Notes under the pieces: generated by a model
Seen by the model: the letters and a program-made list of their open reading frames with translations, nothing else
Database searches by the model: none
What the model was told of the DNA's origin: nothing
Part shown: piece after piece, positions 4,575 to 18,544 of the stretch
Layout of the letters: the number at the start of each line of letters is the position of its first letter
How positions within the stretch are numbered: position 1 is the first letter of the stretch
Position numbers and translations under genes: made by a program
DNA from: Candidatus Planktophila limnetica
Lineage (GTDB): Bacteria; Actinomycetota; Actinomycetes; Nanopelagicales; Nanopelagicaceae
Reading direction: 5' to 3'
Length of the DNA: 23,169 nucleotides
NCBI GenBank assembly: GCA_029979485.1
Contig: JAPOHK010000003.1
Coordinates: forward strand, 1 to 23,169

Positions 4575-5255
4575 ATGACTTCAGAACCCTCAAAGAACTT
4601 TTTATCAGAGTTCCTGCGTCCACACCGAACTATCCCTCAAACTTCTTGGGCTGCAAAACATCGCTGGGATCTCTCTTTTTCTCGGATAGCAATACTTTTT
4701 TTTGGATTGTTTATTTTCGGTTTAGGTGATTCATTGTTGGTTCAAAGTGATACTGGAAATGCTCCATGGACAGTTCTTGCGCAAGGAGTTGCGAATAAAT
4801 TAGATATCTCAATCGGAATTTCAACTCTTGCTATAAGCACATTGGTTTTACTTTTATGGATTCCGTTACGAGAAAAGCCAGGATTTGGAACGATTGCAAA
4901 CATCGTGATCATCGCGAGTGCAATACAAATTGGAGTAAATGTTTTTCCTCTTGCCCATAACTATCTAATTGGGATAGTTATGGATTTTCTCGGAATCGCA
5001 ATGGTAGGAATAGGTTCGGCGCTATACATTACGTGTGCTCTAGGCCCTGGCCCCCGCGATGGATTAATGACTGCCATTCATAATCGCAGTGGAGTTCGAG
5101 TAGGTCGTGTTCGCTTAGGTATCGAGGGAACGGTTCTGATCCTCGGAAGTCTTCTAGGAGGCACAGTCGGCTTAGGAACTGCCCTATTTGCCCTCTTCAT
5201 AGGTCAATCAATTGCAATTTCTCTGGGTGTTGTTTCGCGAATTACTTCCAAGTAA
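4575..5255 (+). CDS. YczE/YyaS/YitT-like membrane protein
   Basis: The 226-residue protein has a soluble N-terminus of about 30 residues followed by five to six hydrophobic segments. It contains GLGDSLLVQSDTGNAPWTVL in the first membrane region and the signature ALGPGPRDGLM between later ones. Both are typical of the YczE-like family, whose molecular function is not established. The start is the first ATG in frame and lies six bases after a TAGACT element, without a Shine-Dalgarno. It may be expressed with the purine permease that follows 93 bases downstream, but a structured leader lies between the two. What it carries or senses cannot be said from sequence. Confidence 0.85.
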   Translation: MTSEPSKNFLSEFLRPHRTIPQTSWAAKHRWDLSFSRIAILFFGLFIFGLGDSLLVQSDTGNAPWTVLAQGVANKLDISIGISTLAISTLVLLLWIPLREKPGFGTIANIVIIASAIQIGVNVFPLAHNYLIGIVMDFLGIAMVGIGSALYITCALGPGPRDGLMTAIHNRSGVRVGRVRLGIEGTVLILGSLLGGTVGLGTALFALFIGQSIAISLGVVSRITSK

Positions 5256-5348: not shown

Positions 5349-6758
5349 ATGCTAGATAAATACTTCAAAATCACAGAACGCGGATCAACCATGGGTCGCG
5401 AAATTCGCGGCGGAGTGGTTACGTTCTTCACGATGGCATACATCGTGGCGCTTAATCCGCTCATCATCGGTCTCACAAAGGATGCTGATGGTAAGTATCT
5501 TGGTGGCGGCGACGCTCCAAACCTTGCATTGGTAGCAGCTGCTACAGCGTTGATTGCAGGAGTTCTTACAATCCTTATGGGTGTTGTTGGAAACTATCCA
5601 CTAGCCCTTGCAACTGGCTTAGGTTTAAATACTTTCGTCGCTGTTGGTATTGCTTCAAAAATGTCGTGGGCAGATGCCATGGGACTGGTAGTTCTAGAAG
5701 GAATCATTATCACCGTCCTCGTTTTAACAGGATTTAGAACTGCAGTATTTCGCGCAGTTCCAGCGCAATTAAAGATTGCGATTTCTGTTGGTATTGGTTT
5801 GTTTATCGCTTTAATCGGTCTAGTTGACGCAGGATTCGTTCGCCGTACAGGTACTGGACCAGTTCCAGTAACTTTAGGTGATAACGGAACTCTTGTTGGC
5901 TGGCCAATTATTATTTTCGCACTCGGTCTTTTCTTGATGATTACTTTGATGGTCAAAAAGGTCAAAGGTGCATTACTTATCGGCATCGCCGTAGCAACTG
6001 CAGCAGCAATCGCAGTTGAATCAGCCTTCAAAATTGGACCAAACTTCATCGCTCCAGATAAAGTCAATCCAAAGGGTTGGGGGCTAAACGTTCCTAGCGT
6101 TCCATCTGATGTCATTGCAACACCTGATTTCGGCTTACTTGGACAATTCTCCCTCTTCGGATCCTTTAGCCGTATTTCAATTGTCGCAGCAATCTTAATT
6201 GTGTTCACCCTCTTGCTCTCAGACTTCTTCGATACCGTTGGAACTGTTACAGCAATTGGTCATGAATCAGGACTTATTGACTCAAAGGGAAATATTCCAA
6301 ATAACGATCGAATTCTTCTTGTTGACTCTCTAGCAGCAGTTGCAGGTGGCGCTGGAAGCATTTCTTCAAATACCAGTTATATCGAATCCGCTTCAGGTGT
6401 AGGTGAAGGTGCCCGAACAGGATTAGCTTCTGTTGTAACAGGTGTTCTGTTCCTGCTAACAACTTTCCTAGCACCATTGGTTGCAGTGATTCCTTACGAA
6501 GCCGCAACTCCAGCGCTTGTAATCGTTGGATTCCTGATGATGACTCAAATCAAAGGTATCGATTGGGCGGATTACGGAATCGCAATTCCAGCGTTTCTCA
6601 CCATCATCCTTATGCCATTTACCTACAACATTTCAGTTGGTATCGGTGCAGGGTTTGTCTCACACGTCGTAATTCGTTTGGTTCAGGGACGTCGCAAAGA
6701 AGTTCATCCACTTCTTATCCTCGTCAGTGTTTTGTTCATGGTTTATTTCTTGGCATAG
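5349..6758 (+). CDS. NCS2 family purine permease (AzgA/PbuG-like)
   Basis: This 469-residue inner-membrane transporter has about 12-14 hydrophobic segments. The start FKITERGSTMGREIRGGVVT, followed by FFTMAYIVALNP, is the hallmark N-terminus of the AzgA-like branch of NCS2, which imports adenine, guanine or hypoxanthine with protons. Other family stretches are LATGLGLNTFVAVG, DFFDTVGTVTAIG and SNTSYIESASGVGEGARTG (the substrate-site helix region). Length is typical. The ATG has a strong AGGAAGG Shine-Dalgarno at 5336-5342 that can be masked by the upstream leader. With apt in the same window it suggests purine scavenging. The exact base carried is not decidable here. Transcription probably ends at the hairpin beyond its stop. 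Confidence 0.93.
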   Translation: MLDKYFKITERGSTMGREIRGGVVTFFTMAYIVALNPLIIGLTKDADGKYLGGGDAPNLALVAAATALIAGVLTILMGVVGNYPLALATGLGLNTFVAVGIASKMSWADAMGLVVLEGIIITVLVLTGFRTAVFRAVPAQLKIAISVGIGLFIALIGLVDAGFVRRTGTGPVPVTLGDNGTLVGWPIIIFALGLFLMITLMVKKVKGALLIGIAVATAAAIAVESAFKIGPNFIAPDKVNPKGWGLNVPSVPSDVIATPDFGLLGQFSLFGSFSRISIVAAILIVFTLLLSDFFDTVGTVTAIGHESGLIDSKGNIPNNDRILLVDSLAAVAGGAGSISSNTSYIESASGVGEGARTGLASVVTGVLFLLTTFLAPLVAVIPYEAATPALVIVGFLMMTQIKGIDWADYGIAIPAFLTIILMPFTYNISVGIGAGFVSHVVIRLVQGRRKEVHPLLILVSVLFMVYFLA

Positions 6759-12759: not shown

Positions 12760-13663
12760 AAGTTTCTCCTGGGGCAATCCTTGCTCCATTTAGCCACTCT
12801 GCCGCTGTCATTTCTTTCTTTCCTGCCGGGATAACTTTGGAAACCTCAATTGGAACATCAAGAGTTCCCACAAAAAGTTTCTTGTTTTCTATGTGAATTA
12901 TTCCCGGAGCTAAGATCGTTTCGGTGGTCGATAGACCAAGTTCAGTAATTTTCAAAACAATTCCTTGGAAACTTGTCCATGCCCCAGGAGTAGGAGTAAA
13001 TGCTCTAACTGTGTTTAAAACACTTGCAGATCTCGCTTTCCAATTAATCCGCGTTTCTTGCTTGGATATTTTTGGAGCGAAGCTAATTCCATCTTGAACT
13101 TGTTTTATAGGTTGCACTCCCCTTTCAATGTCGTTCAAAACTTGAGAAAAGGCTTTAGCTCCCCGTTCTGAAAGGGCCTTGAGGACATCTCCGCTGGTAG
13201 CGCGTGTATCGACGTCGTATTTTTCTTGATGATATATCGGACCTGTATCTAAATTTTGATCTATTTTGAAAATTGAATAACCAGTAACACTTTCACCGTT
13301 TAACAAAGCTCTTTGAACTGGCGCCGCCCCGCGATAGGCAGGCAAAAGTGAAAAATGTAAATTTATAAATCCATATCTTGGTAGATCCAAAATATTTGCA
13401 CTCAGAATTTTGCCGTATGCAATCGCTATCACGATGTCGCAATCTTCAAATGCTGCCTTCATCTCATCTACTGTGCTTGGTTTGAAAATAGGAATGGAAT
13501 TTTCGTTAGCCCACACGGCAATTTGTGATTGGGTGAGCACTTTCCCCCGTCCCGACCTAGAGTCAGGAGTGGTAACGATTCTCACTAGTTCGTGTTCAGA
13601 TTTATTCAGCCACTCTAAGGTTGGGATAGCTACATGTGCTGTAGCCGCCACAACAACACGCAC
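12752..13663 (-). CDS. fmt: Methionyl-tRNA formyltransferase
   Basis: This 303-residue enzyme formylates initiator Met-tRNA using 10-formyl-tetrahydrofolate. The catalytic triad is visible as N101 and H103 in FINLHFSLLPAYRGAAPVQ and D139 in NLDTG; these sit five positions below the E. coli N106, H108 and D144. The C-terminal OB-like domain follows (TRINWKARSASVLNTVRAF onward). The usual N-terminal AGTP turn reads AATAHVAIP here, a departure from the common form. The start is GTG, sharing one base with the def stop (TAGTG), so def and fmt are coupled. This is the usual pairing of formyl addition and removal. Confidence 0.95.
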   Translation of the reverse strand: MRVVVAATAHVAIPTLEWLNKSEHELVRIVTTPDSRSGRGKVLTQSQIAVWANENSIPIFKPSTVDEMKAAFEDCDIVIAIAYGKILSANILDLPRYGFINLHFSLLPAYRGAAPVQRALLNGESVTGYSIFKIDQNLDTGPIYHQEKYDVDTRATSGDVLKALSERGAKAFSQVLNDIERGVQPIKQVQDGISFAPKISKQETRINWKARSASVLNTVRAFTPTPGAWTSFQGIVLKITELGLSTTETILAPGIIHIENKKLFVGTLDVPIEVSKVIPAGKKEMTAAEWLNGARIAPGETFE

Positions 13664-14223
13664 TAGAAACCTTTTCCGAATGTATTATGCGGTGAAATTT
13701 TAATGGTTGGTGATGTTCCCTTAGATATAGATTCGGCAAACCACTCAGATTCTCTAATGTCTTTCATTGCTATTTTTCGAGTTTCAACATCTAGACGATC
13801 AATAAAGACAATCCCATCTAAGTGATCAGTTTCATGCTGAATGGCTCTTGCGAGCAACTCTGATCCTTCAACAACTACCGGTTCGCCGTGCATATTCCAA
13901 CCTTTTGCTACAACACGCATCGCGCGTTTTGTGGGGTAAGAAAGCGATGGAAAAGATAGGCAACCTTCATCACCTTCTTGAGTTTCTTCACTTAAATCCA
14001 AGGAGGGATTTATCAAATGCCCAAGTTGCTCATCAACATCCCATACGAATACGCGCAACGAAACACCAATTTGAGGCGCTGCTAAACCAGCACCAGGAGC
14101 AGCAATCATTGTGTCGGTTAAATCCTGAACTAGTTTCCTCAGCTCCTTGTCAAAATCAACGACAGGGGATGCGGGCGTTACCAATACTGGATCGCCAAAT
14201 AATCGGATTTGTTGCAAAGACAT
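13663..14223 (-). CDS. def: Peptide deformylase
   Basis: The 186-residue metalloenzyme removes the N-formyl group from new proteins. All three motifs are intact: GAGLAAPQIG at 44-53, EGCLS at 86-90 with metal ligand C88, and QHETDHLDG with H130 and H134 as ligands and E131 as catalytic base. Length is normal. The ATG lies six bases after TAGACT, with no Shine-Dalgarno, in the 21-base gap after priA. So def-fmt-rsmB-rpe may have its own leaderless promoter in addition to readthrough. Confidence 0.96.
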   Translation of the reverse strand: MSLQQIRLFGDPVLVTPASPVVDFDKELRKLVQDLTDTMIAAPGAGLAAPQIGVSLRVFVWDVDEQLGHLINPSLDLSEETQEGDEGCLSFPSLSYPTKRAMRVVAKGWNMHGEPVVVEGSELLARAIQHETDHLDGIVFIDRLDVETRKIAMKDIRESEWFAESISKGTSPTIKISPHNTFGKGF

Positions 14224-14244: not shown

Positions 14245-16029
14245 TTACCCCAATAGAGCGTATGGATCTATAGCGATACTTACAAAACTCTTCTTCGATA
14301 TTGCTCTTCTGCGACCCAATTCGAAGACAAAATTACTTAATACTTTCCGTTCACCTCTGGGCACGCTAACGAGTATCCGCGCCTCGTTCCTTGCGTGATT
14401 CTCTGACAAATACACCTTAGATGAACTCGGCAATCTGCCATCTTTTATACTTTTTAAGATTCCATTCTTCAACACCGTACCTTCGGATAGCGGTACGCGA
14501 AGTACAGCAGATGATGCAACTGGAGGCAGAAATGCGTCACTGTTTTCCCGCAAAATCTTTTTTACAAGCACACTGGGGTTCCATCGAGATAATGATGCGA
14601 CGACCGGATGAACTGGATCAAGCACAACTAAAACGCTCCCGTTCTTTCTAACACGAGAAGCAGCTTCAAAGAAAGACTCGTAAACCATTTCCTCATAAGC
14701 TGACGTACCGCTAGCAAGGAATCTCTGACCTTCCAAAATCACAACAGAAGAATATGAATCAAATGATCCTGGAATGGAACCTGCAGTTGCAATTACAATT
14801 TTTGTTTTCGGCGATATTTCTTCCAAAATATTCGGAGCATTAGATAATTGAATTGCACTATTCGGGAACGCTTTTCCTATCTCTTCGTAGAATCTTTCAA
14901 TCCCGCGAGCTGCTGCGTATCTTGTAGTTCCCCTGCACCAGCTGCACTTCCAATTTTTCACTTCATTGCTGCACAGTGCGCAAAGTGGATCTGCGTTTTG
15001 GCTATTAAGAAACAATCTGCCGCCACACTCACATAACGCGACGTTTTTACACTTGGCGCACAATAGAGCATTTGCATATCCCTTGCGAGGTGCTAAGAAC
15101 AGTACAGTCCCCTGACCCAAGGATTTACGAATCTCTGAAACTATTCGATCAGGGAGCAACTCCCCTCTCTCTTGAGCGAATGCTAGGGTTCTAATGTTTT
15201 GTTTTTGTCCTAAGAATTTAACGTTTCTGTTTTCAATTTGATAGGCCATCTCTGACGATGGAACGTATCCGGTAAAAAAGACATTACTTGAATCGATAGA
15301 TGATCGTAAGAAAACACTATCTCGAACATTCCAGTAAGGATGCTTTTGCTCATAAAAATGCTCTGATTTCTCAAACCCTACAATTATCGAATCCACATTA
15401 TTTGCTGGAACAAATAATGCACTTCGTGTACCGATAACTAAAACTTTTGGAAGCACGGAAGCCGAGAGATAATTCTTGTATCTTTCTGAGCGAGTTAGAG
15501 AAGAATCCAATCTAATAATCGGAGTGTCTAGTTCGAGGGCTTGCAGCAATATTTCTAGGCGCGAAACATCCTTCACATCAGGCAACAAGATTAGAACTGA
15601 GCCACGTTTCAATCGATTTACGGCCAATTCTGCCAACTCGACGTAGGCCGAAACATGTGGACTGTGCATCAAATAGGTGAACTCACCTCTTTTGGAACTC
15701 CGCGGCTTGTATTTGGAGAATTCGCTGTCATTGCTCTTAACCAACTTTTCAACAGCAGCAACTCTTGCTGGAATCCCTGATTTGATAATTGAATATGGAT
15801 CGCTAGCCCAATAACTGGCCATTTCAGAGTAGAAAGAAATCATGGCTGGATTTGTCACCGGGTAATCACCCAATAATGATTCAATAACTTTCAAATTTCC
15901 TAAAGGTTGCGTTGTGGTAGCCAATTCAACGACGATGGCCTCGCAGCTACGTGAATTGAATGGAACTTTTAAACGAGAACCAATGGCGACGTTAAGCAAA
16001 AGATCATTTGGGATTCGATACGAATACAA
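14245..16029 (-). CDS. priA: PriA, primosomal/replication restart protein, N-terminally truncated by an in-frame stop
   Basis: The open frame gives 594 residues from a TTG at 16029. PriA helps reload the replisome at stalled forks. Eight zinc-binding cysteines are intact (324, 327, 333, 335, 350, 353, 362, 365). GTRSALFVP near 200 matches the helicase core, but Walker A is absent (residues near 118-126 read TYLMHSPHV) and the DEEH box is replaced by FEKSEH at 219-224. This degeneration is usual in Actinobacteria, so the protein is probably not an active helicase. The N-terminal DNA-binding domain is incomplete: the frame upstream encodes its first strand but is cut by TAA at 16042-16044. The TTG has no good Shine-Dalgarno, so whether this protein is made is uncertain. 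Confidence 0.85.
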   Translation of the reverse strand: MYSYRIPNDLLLNVAIGSRLKVPFNSRSCEAIVVELATTTQPLGNLKVIESLLGDYPVTNPAMISFYSEMASYWASDPYSIIKSGIPARVAAVEKLVKSNDSEFSKYKPRSSKRGEFTYLMHSPHVSAYVELAELAVNRLKRGSVLILLPDVKDVSRLEILLQALELDTPIIRLDSSLTRSERYKNYLSASVLPKVLVIGTRSALFVPANNVDSIIVGFEKSEHFYEQKHPYWNVRDSVFLRSSIDSSNVFFTGYVPSSEMAYQIENRNVKFLGQKQNIRTLAFAQERGELLPDRIVSEIRKSLGQGTVLFLAPRKGYANALLCAKCKNVALCECGGRLFLNSQNADPLCALCSNEVKNWKCSWCRGTTRYAAARGIERFYEEIGKAFPNSAIQLSNAPNILEEISPKTKIVIATAGSIPGSFDSYSSVVILEGQRFLASGTSAYEEMVYESFFEAASRVRKNGSVLVVLDPVHPVVASLSRWNPSVLVKKILRENSDAFLPPVASSAVLRVPLSEGTVLKNGILKSIKDGRLPSSSKVYLSENHARNEARILVSVPRGERKVLSNFVFELGRRRAISKKSFVSIAIDPYALLG

Positions 16030-16146
16030 GCCGTCTAAGTGTTATAATCCAGAATCAACCCAGACGTTAGCGATGGCATGAGAGTCCGCTGGACGTTCTA
16101 AACGAAAGGTTTCCCGTTTCAATCGAAGCGGTTTAACGCTTTGCAT
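16030..16146 (-). pseudogene. priA: Displaced 5' end of priA, separated from the body by an ochre codon
   Basis: From an ATG at 16146-16144, 15 bases after the metK stop and with a weak AGG about nine bases before it, the frame reads 34 residues ending IANVWVDSGL. A TAA follows at 16044-16042, then HLDGLYSYRIP runs in the same frame into the priA body. The joined text VWVDSGL-x-HLDGLYSYRIP is what actinobacterial PriA N-termini look like. The stop is therefore inside the gene, not before it. A single change in TTA (Leu) or CAA (Gln) would create it. It could be a real mutation, a population variant or a consensus error. Confidence 0.75.
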
Positions 16147-16161: not shown

Positions 16162-17352
16162 TTATTTTATAGCGGCACGTAAAGCGTCTACGCGACTTGT
16201 TGACTCCCACGTAAATTCCTTCAATTCACGACCGAAGTGACCATATGCGCTGGTCTTTGAATAAATAGGACGAAGTAAGTCTAGATCCCGGATGATTGCA
16301 GCTGGACGTAAATCAAAGACTTGCAGAACTGCATCTTGAATTTTACTTATTGGAAAACTTTCTGTTCCGAAAGTTTCAACAAAAAGACCAACTGGTTGAG
16401 CTTTTCCAATTGCGTATGCAACTTGCACTTCACAGCGACGTGCAAAACCGGCTGCTACAACATTCTTAGCTACCCATCGCATTGCGTACGCTGCAGATCG
16501 ATCCACTTTCGACGGATCTTTGCCGCTAAATGCACCACCGCCATGGCGTGCCATACCGCCGTATGTATCCACAATAATCTTACGACCAGTTAATCCAGCG
16601 TCACCCATTGGGCCACCGATAACGAATCGACCAGTTGGATTTATAAGTATACGCAGATCATTTTTTGGCAGATCTATTTTTGCAAGAATTGGATTGATAA
16701 CTTGTTCAATAATTTCAGGAGTTAACTGCTTTTCAACCGAAACTTCTTCGCTGTGTTGAGAAGAAATAACAACCGTATTGAGAGCAACTGCTTTATCGCC
16801 TTCGTATTCAATAGTTACTTGCGTCTTTCCATCTGGGCGAAGATACGGCAACGCGCCTGACTTTCGTACTTTAGATAGTTGGGCTGCCAATTCATGGGCA
16901 AGCCAAATAGGTAAAGGCATTAATTCTTTTGTATCATCACAAGCGTAACCAAACATCAATCCTTGATCTCCAGCTCCCTGCAAATCTAGTGGATCAACTG
17001 ATGAAGCGACGCGATTTTCATAAGCATCATCTACGCCTTGAGCAATATCTTGTGATTGCTGACCAATAGAAACTGAAACACCGCAAGAATTTCCATCAAA
17101 TCCCTTAACTGAAGAGTCATAACCAATATTCAATACAGTTTCTCTAATAATTCCAGTGACATCGGCATAAGCATCTGTTGTCACTTCGCCCGCTACATGA
17201 ACTTGACCAGTTGTGATGAGTGTCTCTACAGCCACTCTAGATTTCTTGTCTTGACCGATTAATGAATCCAGAATTGCATCAGAAATCTGATCTGCAATTT
17301 TGTCGGGATGACCTTCTGTTACGGATTCGGAAGTAAATAGTCTCTTAGCCAT
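16162..17352 (-). CDS. metK: S-adenosylmethionine synthetase
   Basis: The enzyme makes SAM from methionine and ATP. The family motifs are clear: [19 protein letters not shown] near the N-terminus, [14 protein letters not shown] in the middle, and the P-loop-like [16 protein letters not shown]. The predicted product of 396 residues is normal. I chose the second ATG (17352), with AGG eight bases upstream, because it gives the usual [11 protein letters not shown] start; the first ATG at 17358 adds two residues. The start overlaps the coaBC stop by eight bases, so the two are translationally linked. There is no room for a SAM riboswitch in front of it. Confidence 0.97.
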
Positions 17353-18544
17353 TGGCATAACCTAACCTAGAAACGACCTTATCTAAAATATATTTTGCAA
17401 TTTTGGCCTTGGAAGTCTGCTCAATGTAGGTGCTCTCGCCATCGGCGCTTATCAAATATCCTGCACTTTCATCGGAGGCAAAGACAGCTCCATTGGAAAC
17501 ATCATTTACGTAGATAAGATCAAGTTCCTTTGATAGAAGTTTTGCCTTACCTAACTCCTCTAAGTTCGAAGTTTCTGCCGCGAATCCCACAATCACCTGC
17601 GAATCATTCGCGGATGTACTCAGATCTTTGAGTATGTCTAAATTTGATACCAAATCGATGGAATTTAAATCATTCTTCTTGATCTTCTCTGTCGCTACTG
17701 AAGTTGGTCTTGCGTCTGAAACCGCAGCTGCCATTATCAAAACATCACTATCCTGCATGTTAGCCAACAAAGCGCTATGCATCTCTGCAGCAGTTTCTAC
17801 TTTGAGTGTTTTGACTCCTGCTAATTCGCTAGCGTCAGAGTTGGCAAGAACCATGGTTACAAGGGCGCCTCGATTTCGAGCCTCGATTGCTAGAGCCTGC
17901 CCTTGTTTACCGGAACTGCGGTTACCGATGTAGCGAACTGGATCAATTGCTTCTCTTGTTCCGCCTGCGGAAATAAGAATTTTTTTACCAACTAAATCTT
18001 GCGTCGACCCAATATGCTCAAGAAATGCAGCAATAATCTCATTTGTATCAGGAAACCTTCCTACGCCAGAATCTTCACCGGTGAGACGTCCTGTTGCTGG
18101 TTGCATAACCGCAAATCCACGTGAACGCAGAATTTCAACATTCGCTTGAGTCGTTGGATTAAGCCACATTTGTGGATGCATTGCAGGAACAAGGAATTTA
18201 GGTTTCGAGCTTGCGCAAACAACATTCGTCAGAAGATCATCAGCCCTACCTTGAACTAAGCGGGCAAGAAGATCAGCTGTTGTTGGAGCAATTATGATTG
18301 CATCAGATTGATCGGCTAATGAAACGTGTTTCACCTTTTCAACATCTTGCCAGACTTCCGTACTCACACTTCGACCGGAAAGAGCTTCCCATGTTGCCGT
18401 TCCAACAAAGTTCAAACTCGATGGCGTTGGAACAACGGTTACAGAAAAATTTAAATCTTGGAGCCGACGTAATAAATCGCAAGCTTTGTACGCTGCGATT
18501 CCGCCACCAACTCCGAGAACAATTTCTCGCTTGGCACCGCTCAT
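17345..18544 (-). CDS. coaBC: Bifunctional phosphopantothenoylcysteine decarboxylase / phosphopantothenate-cysteine ligase
   Basis: This 399-residue enzyme performs two steps of coenzyme A synthesis. The CoaC flavin domain comes first, with [20 protein letters not shown], the [14 protein letters not shown] region and the PAMHPQMW motif. The CoaB ligase domain follows from about residue 185, with [20 protein letters not shown] and SSGKQG, then the TEKIKK loop. Length is typical. The ATG lies nine bases after the rpoZ stop. rpoZ-coaBC-metK is a common actinobacterial arrangement. Confidence 0.96.

Follow-up and report, generated by a model that had tools for sequence, protein, structure and literature searches.

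PriA helicases carry a Walker A motif, and the cysteine-rich region of PriA binds zinc. A smaller and very divergent putative orthologue is described for the actinobacteria in the accessible part of one report (PMC1193525). On the sequencing side, 8-oxo-G formed during DNA shearing gives C:G>A:T errors, according to the accessible part of another (PMC5521083). A literature search gave no paper treating premature stops together with assembly errors in metagenome-assembled genomes.

The locus described here is a priA-like gene of Candidatus Planktophila limnetica, interrupted by a single in-frame TAA. It lies in a stretch of 23,169 nucleotides, the whole of which is called the window below. The assembly containing it has 1,012,534 bases in 162 contigs and is 76.56% complete and 4.33% contaminated. 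We consider, with a probability of about 0.8, that the TAA stems from an error at one base of the consensus of this fragmented draft and does not reflect biology.

The interrupted priA frame and its intact homologues

On the minus strand, an ATG at 16146 is followed by 34 sense codons and by the TAA at 16044-16042, as confirmed in the deposited sequence. The frame resumes right after the stop as HLDGLYSYRIP and runs through 598 open codons, without a further stop, to a terminator ending at 14245. The preliminary description of this DNA had reported the same arrangement, and all of its elements are present. It had also taken the gene for priA, which is borne out by the intact homologue P0001 (see below) and by a match to PF17764, the PriA 3'-DNA-binding domain, just after the stop (E = 4.6e-16; 58.9 bits, cut-off 22.7). 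This match covers profile positions 8-96 of 96 and, since it begins only at position 8, the start of the domain is located at or before the stop. In the mechanical ORF list, the long frame begins at TTG 16029 and encodes 594 amino acids. The gene order on the minus strand, with names from Pfam families, is coaBC, metK, priA, def, fmt and rsmB (Table 1).

Table 1. Features of the priA region and genes of the same assembly cut by one lone stop
Feature	Location	Strand	Description	Evidence
priA-like gene	window 14245..16146	-	633 codons + terminator in relatives' terms, one in-frame interruption	PF17764; P0001 match
priA, first 34 codons, upstream of stop	window 16045..16146	-	34/34 residues as P0001	conserved in six closest same-genus loci
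In-frame TAA in priA	window 16042..16044	-	codon 35 TAA; most likely consensus error	Ser in G014, P0001 and 40/43 further homologues; stop in 0/47 same-genus loci
priA, remainder	window 14245..16041	-	598 open codons + terminator	PF17764
TTG proposed as restart codon	window 16027..16029	-	codon 40 in P0001 frame	no Shine-Dalgarno-like stretch
CAT (His 263)	window 15358..15360	-	at near-invariant Gln	Gln in P0001 and 42/43 further homologues
metK	window 16162..17358	-	intact, directly upstream of priA	Pfam; 96-98% identical in six relatives
def	window 13663..14223	-	intact, directly downstream of priA	ORF list and Pfam
dhaK-like	L148:1553		codon 32 TGA	Gly in G014
glmS	L064:227		codon 516 TAA; 227 bases from contig end	Ser in G014
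Aldehyde dehydrogenase family gene	L060:11579		codon 140 TGA	Gly in G014
ParA-like gene	L159:4338		codon 133 TAA	Glu in G014
tpiA	L167:7712		codon 225 of 257 TAG	Glu in G014
rapZ	L167:2516		codon 206 TAA	Lys in G014

A homologue search with the priA frame, in which the stop position was entered as X, listed P0001 and 119 other matches. P0001 (633 residues; cluster of 73 member sequences) is identical to the window frame at 628 of 633 positions without gaps, the five differences being at positions 35 (the stop), 136, 204, 263 and 317. It is intact, with Ser at position 35, and all 34 residues upstream of the stop are identical. Some of the PriA homologues bear the source name Candidatus Planktophila sp. 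or a truncated one starting with Candidatus Nanopel, and both indicate freshwater actinobacteria, order Nanopelagicales. The sequence from the window was aligned with P0001 and with 43 of the other 119 matches, giving 45 rows. At position 35, Ser was found in 40 of these 43 further homologues, and Thr, Ala and Phe in one each. At position 263, the window has His versus Gln in P0001 and all but one of the 43; judged from this alignment, the His codon is possibly a second private change in priA of the same origin as the stop.

Within the genus, a priA match is present in 128 of 135 genomes and in all 44 of those with a completeness of 90% or more and a contamination of 5% or less. The match in one genome (G118) contains a TAG and extends to residue 598, the usual end being 596; this TAG may be the normal terminator. 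The best 47 of the 128 genus matches (loci L003-L049) were fetched, and none of these 47 has a stop at position 35, where Phe (28), Ser (9), Asp (4), Leu (3), Tyr, Ala and Pro (1 each) are found. The six closest loci among those fetched (60-73% identical) all have Ser at this position and share the motif MxSVKPLRLKR...VWVDSG, and in close relatives priA starts at the upstream ATG. The identity of the 34 residues to P0001, together with this motif, shows both sides of the stop to be one PriA N-terminus, as had been proposed, and the 34 codons before the stop to be conserved PriA sequence and no chance frame. The residue lost was proposed to be Leu or Gln, which is contradicted by the Ser in P0001, in the great majority of the further homologues and in the six closest loci. 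The alignment of the upstream codons to PriA of relatives, which had been suggested as a check, reveals similarity upstream and a start that is not at the TTG.

Two further observations concern the rates at which genes of the window diverge. The priA gene evolves fast, being about 34-72% identical in the genus versus 88-98% for the adjoining metK (seven relatives for metK). A permease gene at 5349-6758 (plus strand) is 94-97% identical in G045, G110 and G009 versus 68-69% in G098 and G014. The neighbouring genes do not show this pattern, which suggests that the gene was replaced or exists in two allelic types.

Lone stops in other genes of the assembly

The background rate of such stops was estimated by comparing 1,240 ORFs of a complete genome of the same genus (G014) with 47 of the 162 contigs (279,172 bases). 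At least 55% identity was found for 241 ORFs, with 72,123 aligned residues. In 14 cases, a stop was flanked on each side by 20 or more aligned residues, and in nine of these the flanks were at least half identical. The stops in L137 and in an ABC transporter gene (window 8258) were dropped, being located before the true start. Seven of the 241 matched genes in this part of the draft genome, priA among them, are cut by one lone stop (Table 1), and each of TAA, TAG and TGA is represented. Gene names were assigned by scanning the uninterrupted orthologues in G014: glmS, tpiA and rapZ score above the curated cut-off, and the matches behind the names dhaK, aldehyde dehydrogenase and ParA score below it.

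In the case of rapZ, P0241 is identical at 287 of 287 positions other than the stop, and position 206 is Ser in 10 of 10 proteins 98-100% identical to it; by this comparison, the stop is private to the assembly. In the case of the dhaK-like gene, full-length matches are at most 93% identical, and the closer P0170 (99%) and P0178 (96%) start only at residue 70, past the stop, which may reflect cutting at a contig edge or mean that other sequences are shortened too. The other four genes (glmS, aldehyde dehydrogenase, ParA-like and tpiA) were compared with G014 only. The dhaK-like protein also reads AAAHTRTMG where fetched homologues having that stretch show Q for H, and the His-for-Gln changes in PriA and in this protein are possibly more errors of the same class.

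Two controls were run. In the reverse comparison of the assembly's own ORFs with G014 (224 matched; 68,736 residues), two stops were flagged, both in short ORFs antisense to longer G014 genes. In the comparison of the 47 loci of relatives with G014 (175 gene matches, many of them the same few genes around priA; 55,567 residues), two were flagged as well, one in the stretch ahead of the ABC transporter gene already mentioned and one four residues before the Met that starts the window's own gene at 4575. After inspection, no lesion resembling the seven was found among the 224 reverse matches or the 175 gene matches in relatives. Stops in seven gene-relative pairs were likewise rejected as lesions, since those in pyrD and pyrF precede the first Met and those in rpe and coaBC are among the final residues. 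The only frameshift-type candidate was against a 110-residue ORF and, therefore, substitutions dominate. A scan of the contigs with the 598-residue priA frame gave 30 stretches fitting the pattern, none of which was confirmed.

The base changes behind the stops are constrained by the genetic code. In one step, Ser can become TAA only from TCA and Gly can become TGA only from GGA, while the Glu codons GAA and GAG give TAA and TAG, respectively. If the residues of relatives are ancestral (Ser for rapZ), seven of seven stops would be one-step G:C-to-T:A changes, the ancestral residue resting on one relative, G014, for five of the seven and G014 having Lys in rapZ. This class makes up 35.5% of the one-step routes to a stop in 71,449 codons of the assembly, and, were all rates equal, the chance of seven of seven would be about 0.0007; a value of 0.0097, computed before rapZ was resolved, applies to six or more of seven. 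Among private residue changes, 11 of 49 in the window are of this class versus 40 of 288 summed over six relatives. Pairwise counts against G014 at 85% identity or more were 141 v 107 for C>A and 124 v 125 for G>T at nonsynonymous sites, and 1286 v 1145 and 762 v 680, respectively, at synonymous sites; at 75% identity, the nonsynonymous skew was 200 v 177 and 163 v 167. The missense spectrum weakly shows a G:C-to-T:A skew which, being weak and mixed genome-wide, was discarded as proof of the error type.

Origin of the stop codon

The near-identical intact PriA and the similar lone stops in other conserved genes make an error more likely than biology. The genes glmS and tpiA are of the essential type, and lone stops in glmS, tpiA, rapZ and priA of one organism are hardly all real null alleles. 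Counted in favour of error are that the stop is private to the assembly in both priA and rapZ, and that glmS and tpiA are cut. Counted against it are the weak missense skew, the lack of an intact near-identical copy of dhaK among the matches, and the possible absence of mutY and mutM from the genome, a loss that would speak for real G:C-to-T:A changes. A sequencing error had been offered as one possible cause in the preliminary description, and it gains support from the six other genes with lone stops. The natural population would then most likely have an ordinary priA of about 633 codons, beginning at ATG 16146. The cause of the stops may be oxidised guanine that was read as T where coverage was thin, and the reads of the source sample would be expected not to support the stop base.

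The principal alternative is a recent, real nonsense allele of a minority strain, possibly one with raised G:C-to-T:A mutation. Such a strain would either have lost priA or translate, from TTG 16029, a small amount of protein without the beginning of the 3'-DNA-binding domain. The 598 codons open after the stop are what a fresh lesion would leave, and the smaller, very divergent actinobacterial orthologue described in the accessible part of PMC1193525 may be dispensable. As for signs of a pseudogene, no further stop is found in the 598 codons and the lesion is absent from the near-identical P0001. We regard such an allele as unlikely, given the six other lone stops in the assembly, glmS and tpiA included, and the retention of a PriA match in every near-complete genome of the genus. 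The preliminary description had held that the cell would lack full-length PriA unless it reads through or restarts at TTG 16029; neither the loss nor the restart finds support, as an intact P0001 exists, further lone stops accompany this one and close relatives start at the upstream ATG. It was right that the TTG has no good Shine-Dalgarno, no such stretch being present in the 25 bases preceding it. This TTG corresponds to an internal Leu codon of the intact homologue.

The repair genes bear on the same alternative. No match to the mutM model was found in this genome or in G014, G055, G045 and G009, and 18 of 61 genus genomes match. No match to the mutY model was found in this genome either, while 56 of the 61 match, none over the curated cut-off. 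The other four genomes without a mutY match are 41-65% complete, this one 76.6%, and both genes could sit in its missing quarter; the incompleteness of these genomes makes the absence of mutY weak evidence. Should the stops prove real, the strain would be a striking natural mutator whose core genes are disrupted. Such a G:C-to-T:A mutator, in a clade seemingly without MutM and a strain seemingly without MutY, would have nonsense alleles of priA, glmS, tpiA and other core genes, and would survive by leaky readthrough or by uptake from neighbours, which we hold to be very improbable.

A genuine PriA start at TTG 16029 in this lineage, with the 34 codons unrelated to the protein, has the mechanical ORF call on its side. 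It was rejected as scarcely credible, since PF17764 would be left without its start, the upstream residues are those of P0001 and are conserved in close relatives, and relatives use the upstream ATG. Readthrough or reassignment of TAA, for which the conserved frame past the stop might speak, is the least credible of all and was rejected, as three different stop codons occur among the lesions, all three end ordinary ORFs of at least 150 aa (TAA 121, TAG 33, TGA 43), none of the 47 best same-genus loci has the stop, and a tRNA scan of 47 of the 162 contigs gave only tRNA-Val and tRNA-Ser(gct) and no suppressor tRNA.

With a consensus error as the preferred reading, the priA stop is probably without importance as biology. 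Nevertheless, with seven of 241 matched genes cut in the part examined, claims of gene loss or recoding from this draft need read support.

Comparison with known systems

A recent bacterial nonsense pseudogene resembles this locus in having one stop in an otherwise open, conserved frame. It differs in that, here, several unrelated core genes are cut and an intact form exists at 99% identity. The G:C>T:A sequencing artefact of oxidised guanine shares the base-change class and the scattered single substitutions. It is known, in the accessible part of PMC5521083, from low-frequency read errors in human DNA, whereas here the error must reach the assembly consensus, needing thin coverage.

The closest likeness among proteins is to the actinobacterial PriA-like primosomal protein N'. 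The PF17764 domain is at the N-terminus, residues 170-556 are similar to solved PriA chains, and the region of residues 356-410 contains eight Cys in 44 of the 45 homologues and seven in one. The G014 orthologue matches PRK14873 and further PriA models, each with a score short of the model's cut-off. In contrast to helicase PriA, the homologues of the window are without a Walker A motif, apart from one chance-like match in 45, and judged by this the PriA of the window is probably inactive as a helicase. The protein is smaller and divergent, as the accessible part of PMC1193525 describes for actinobacteria, and the deposited copy differs from that family in its interruption at codon 35.
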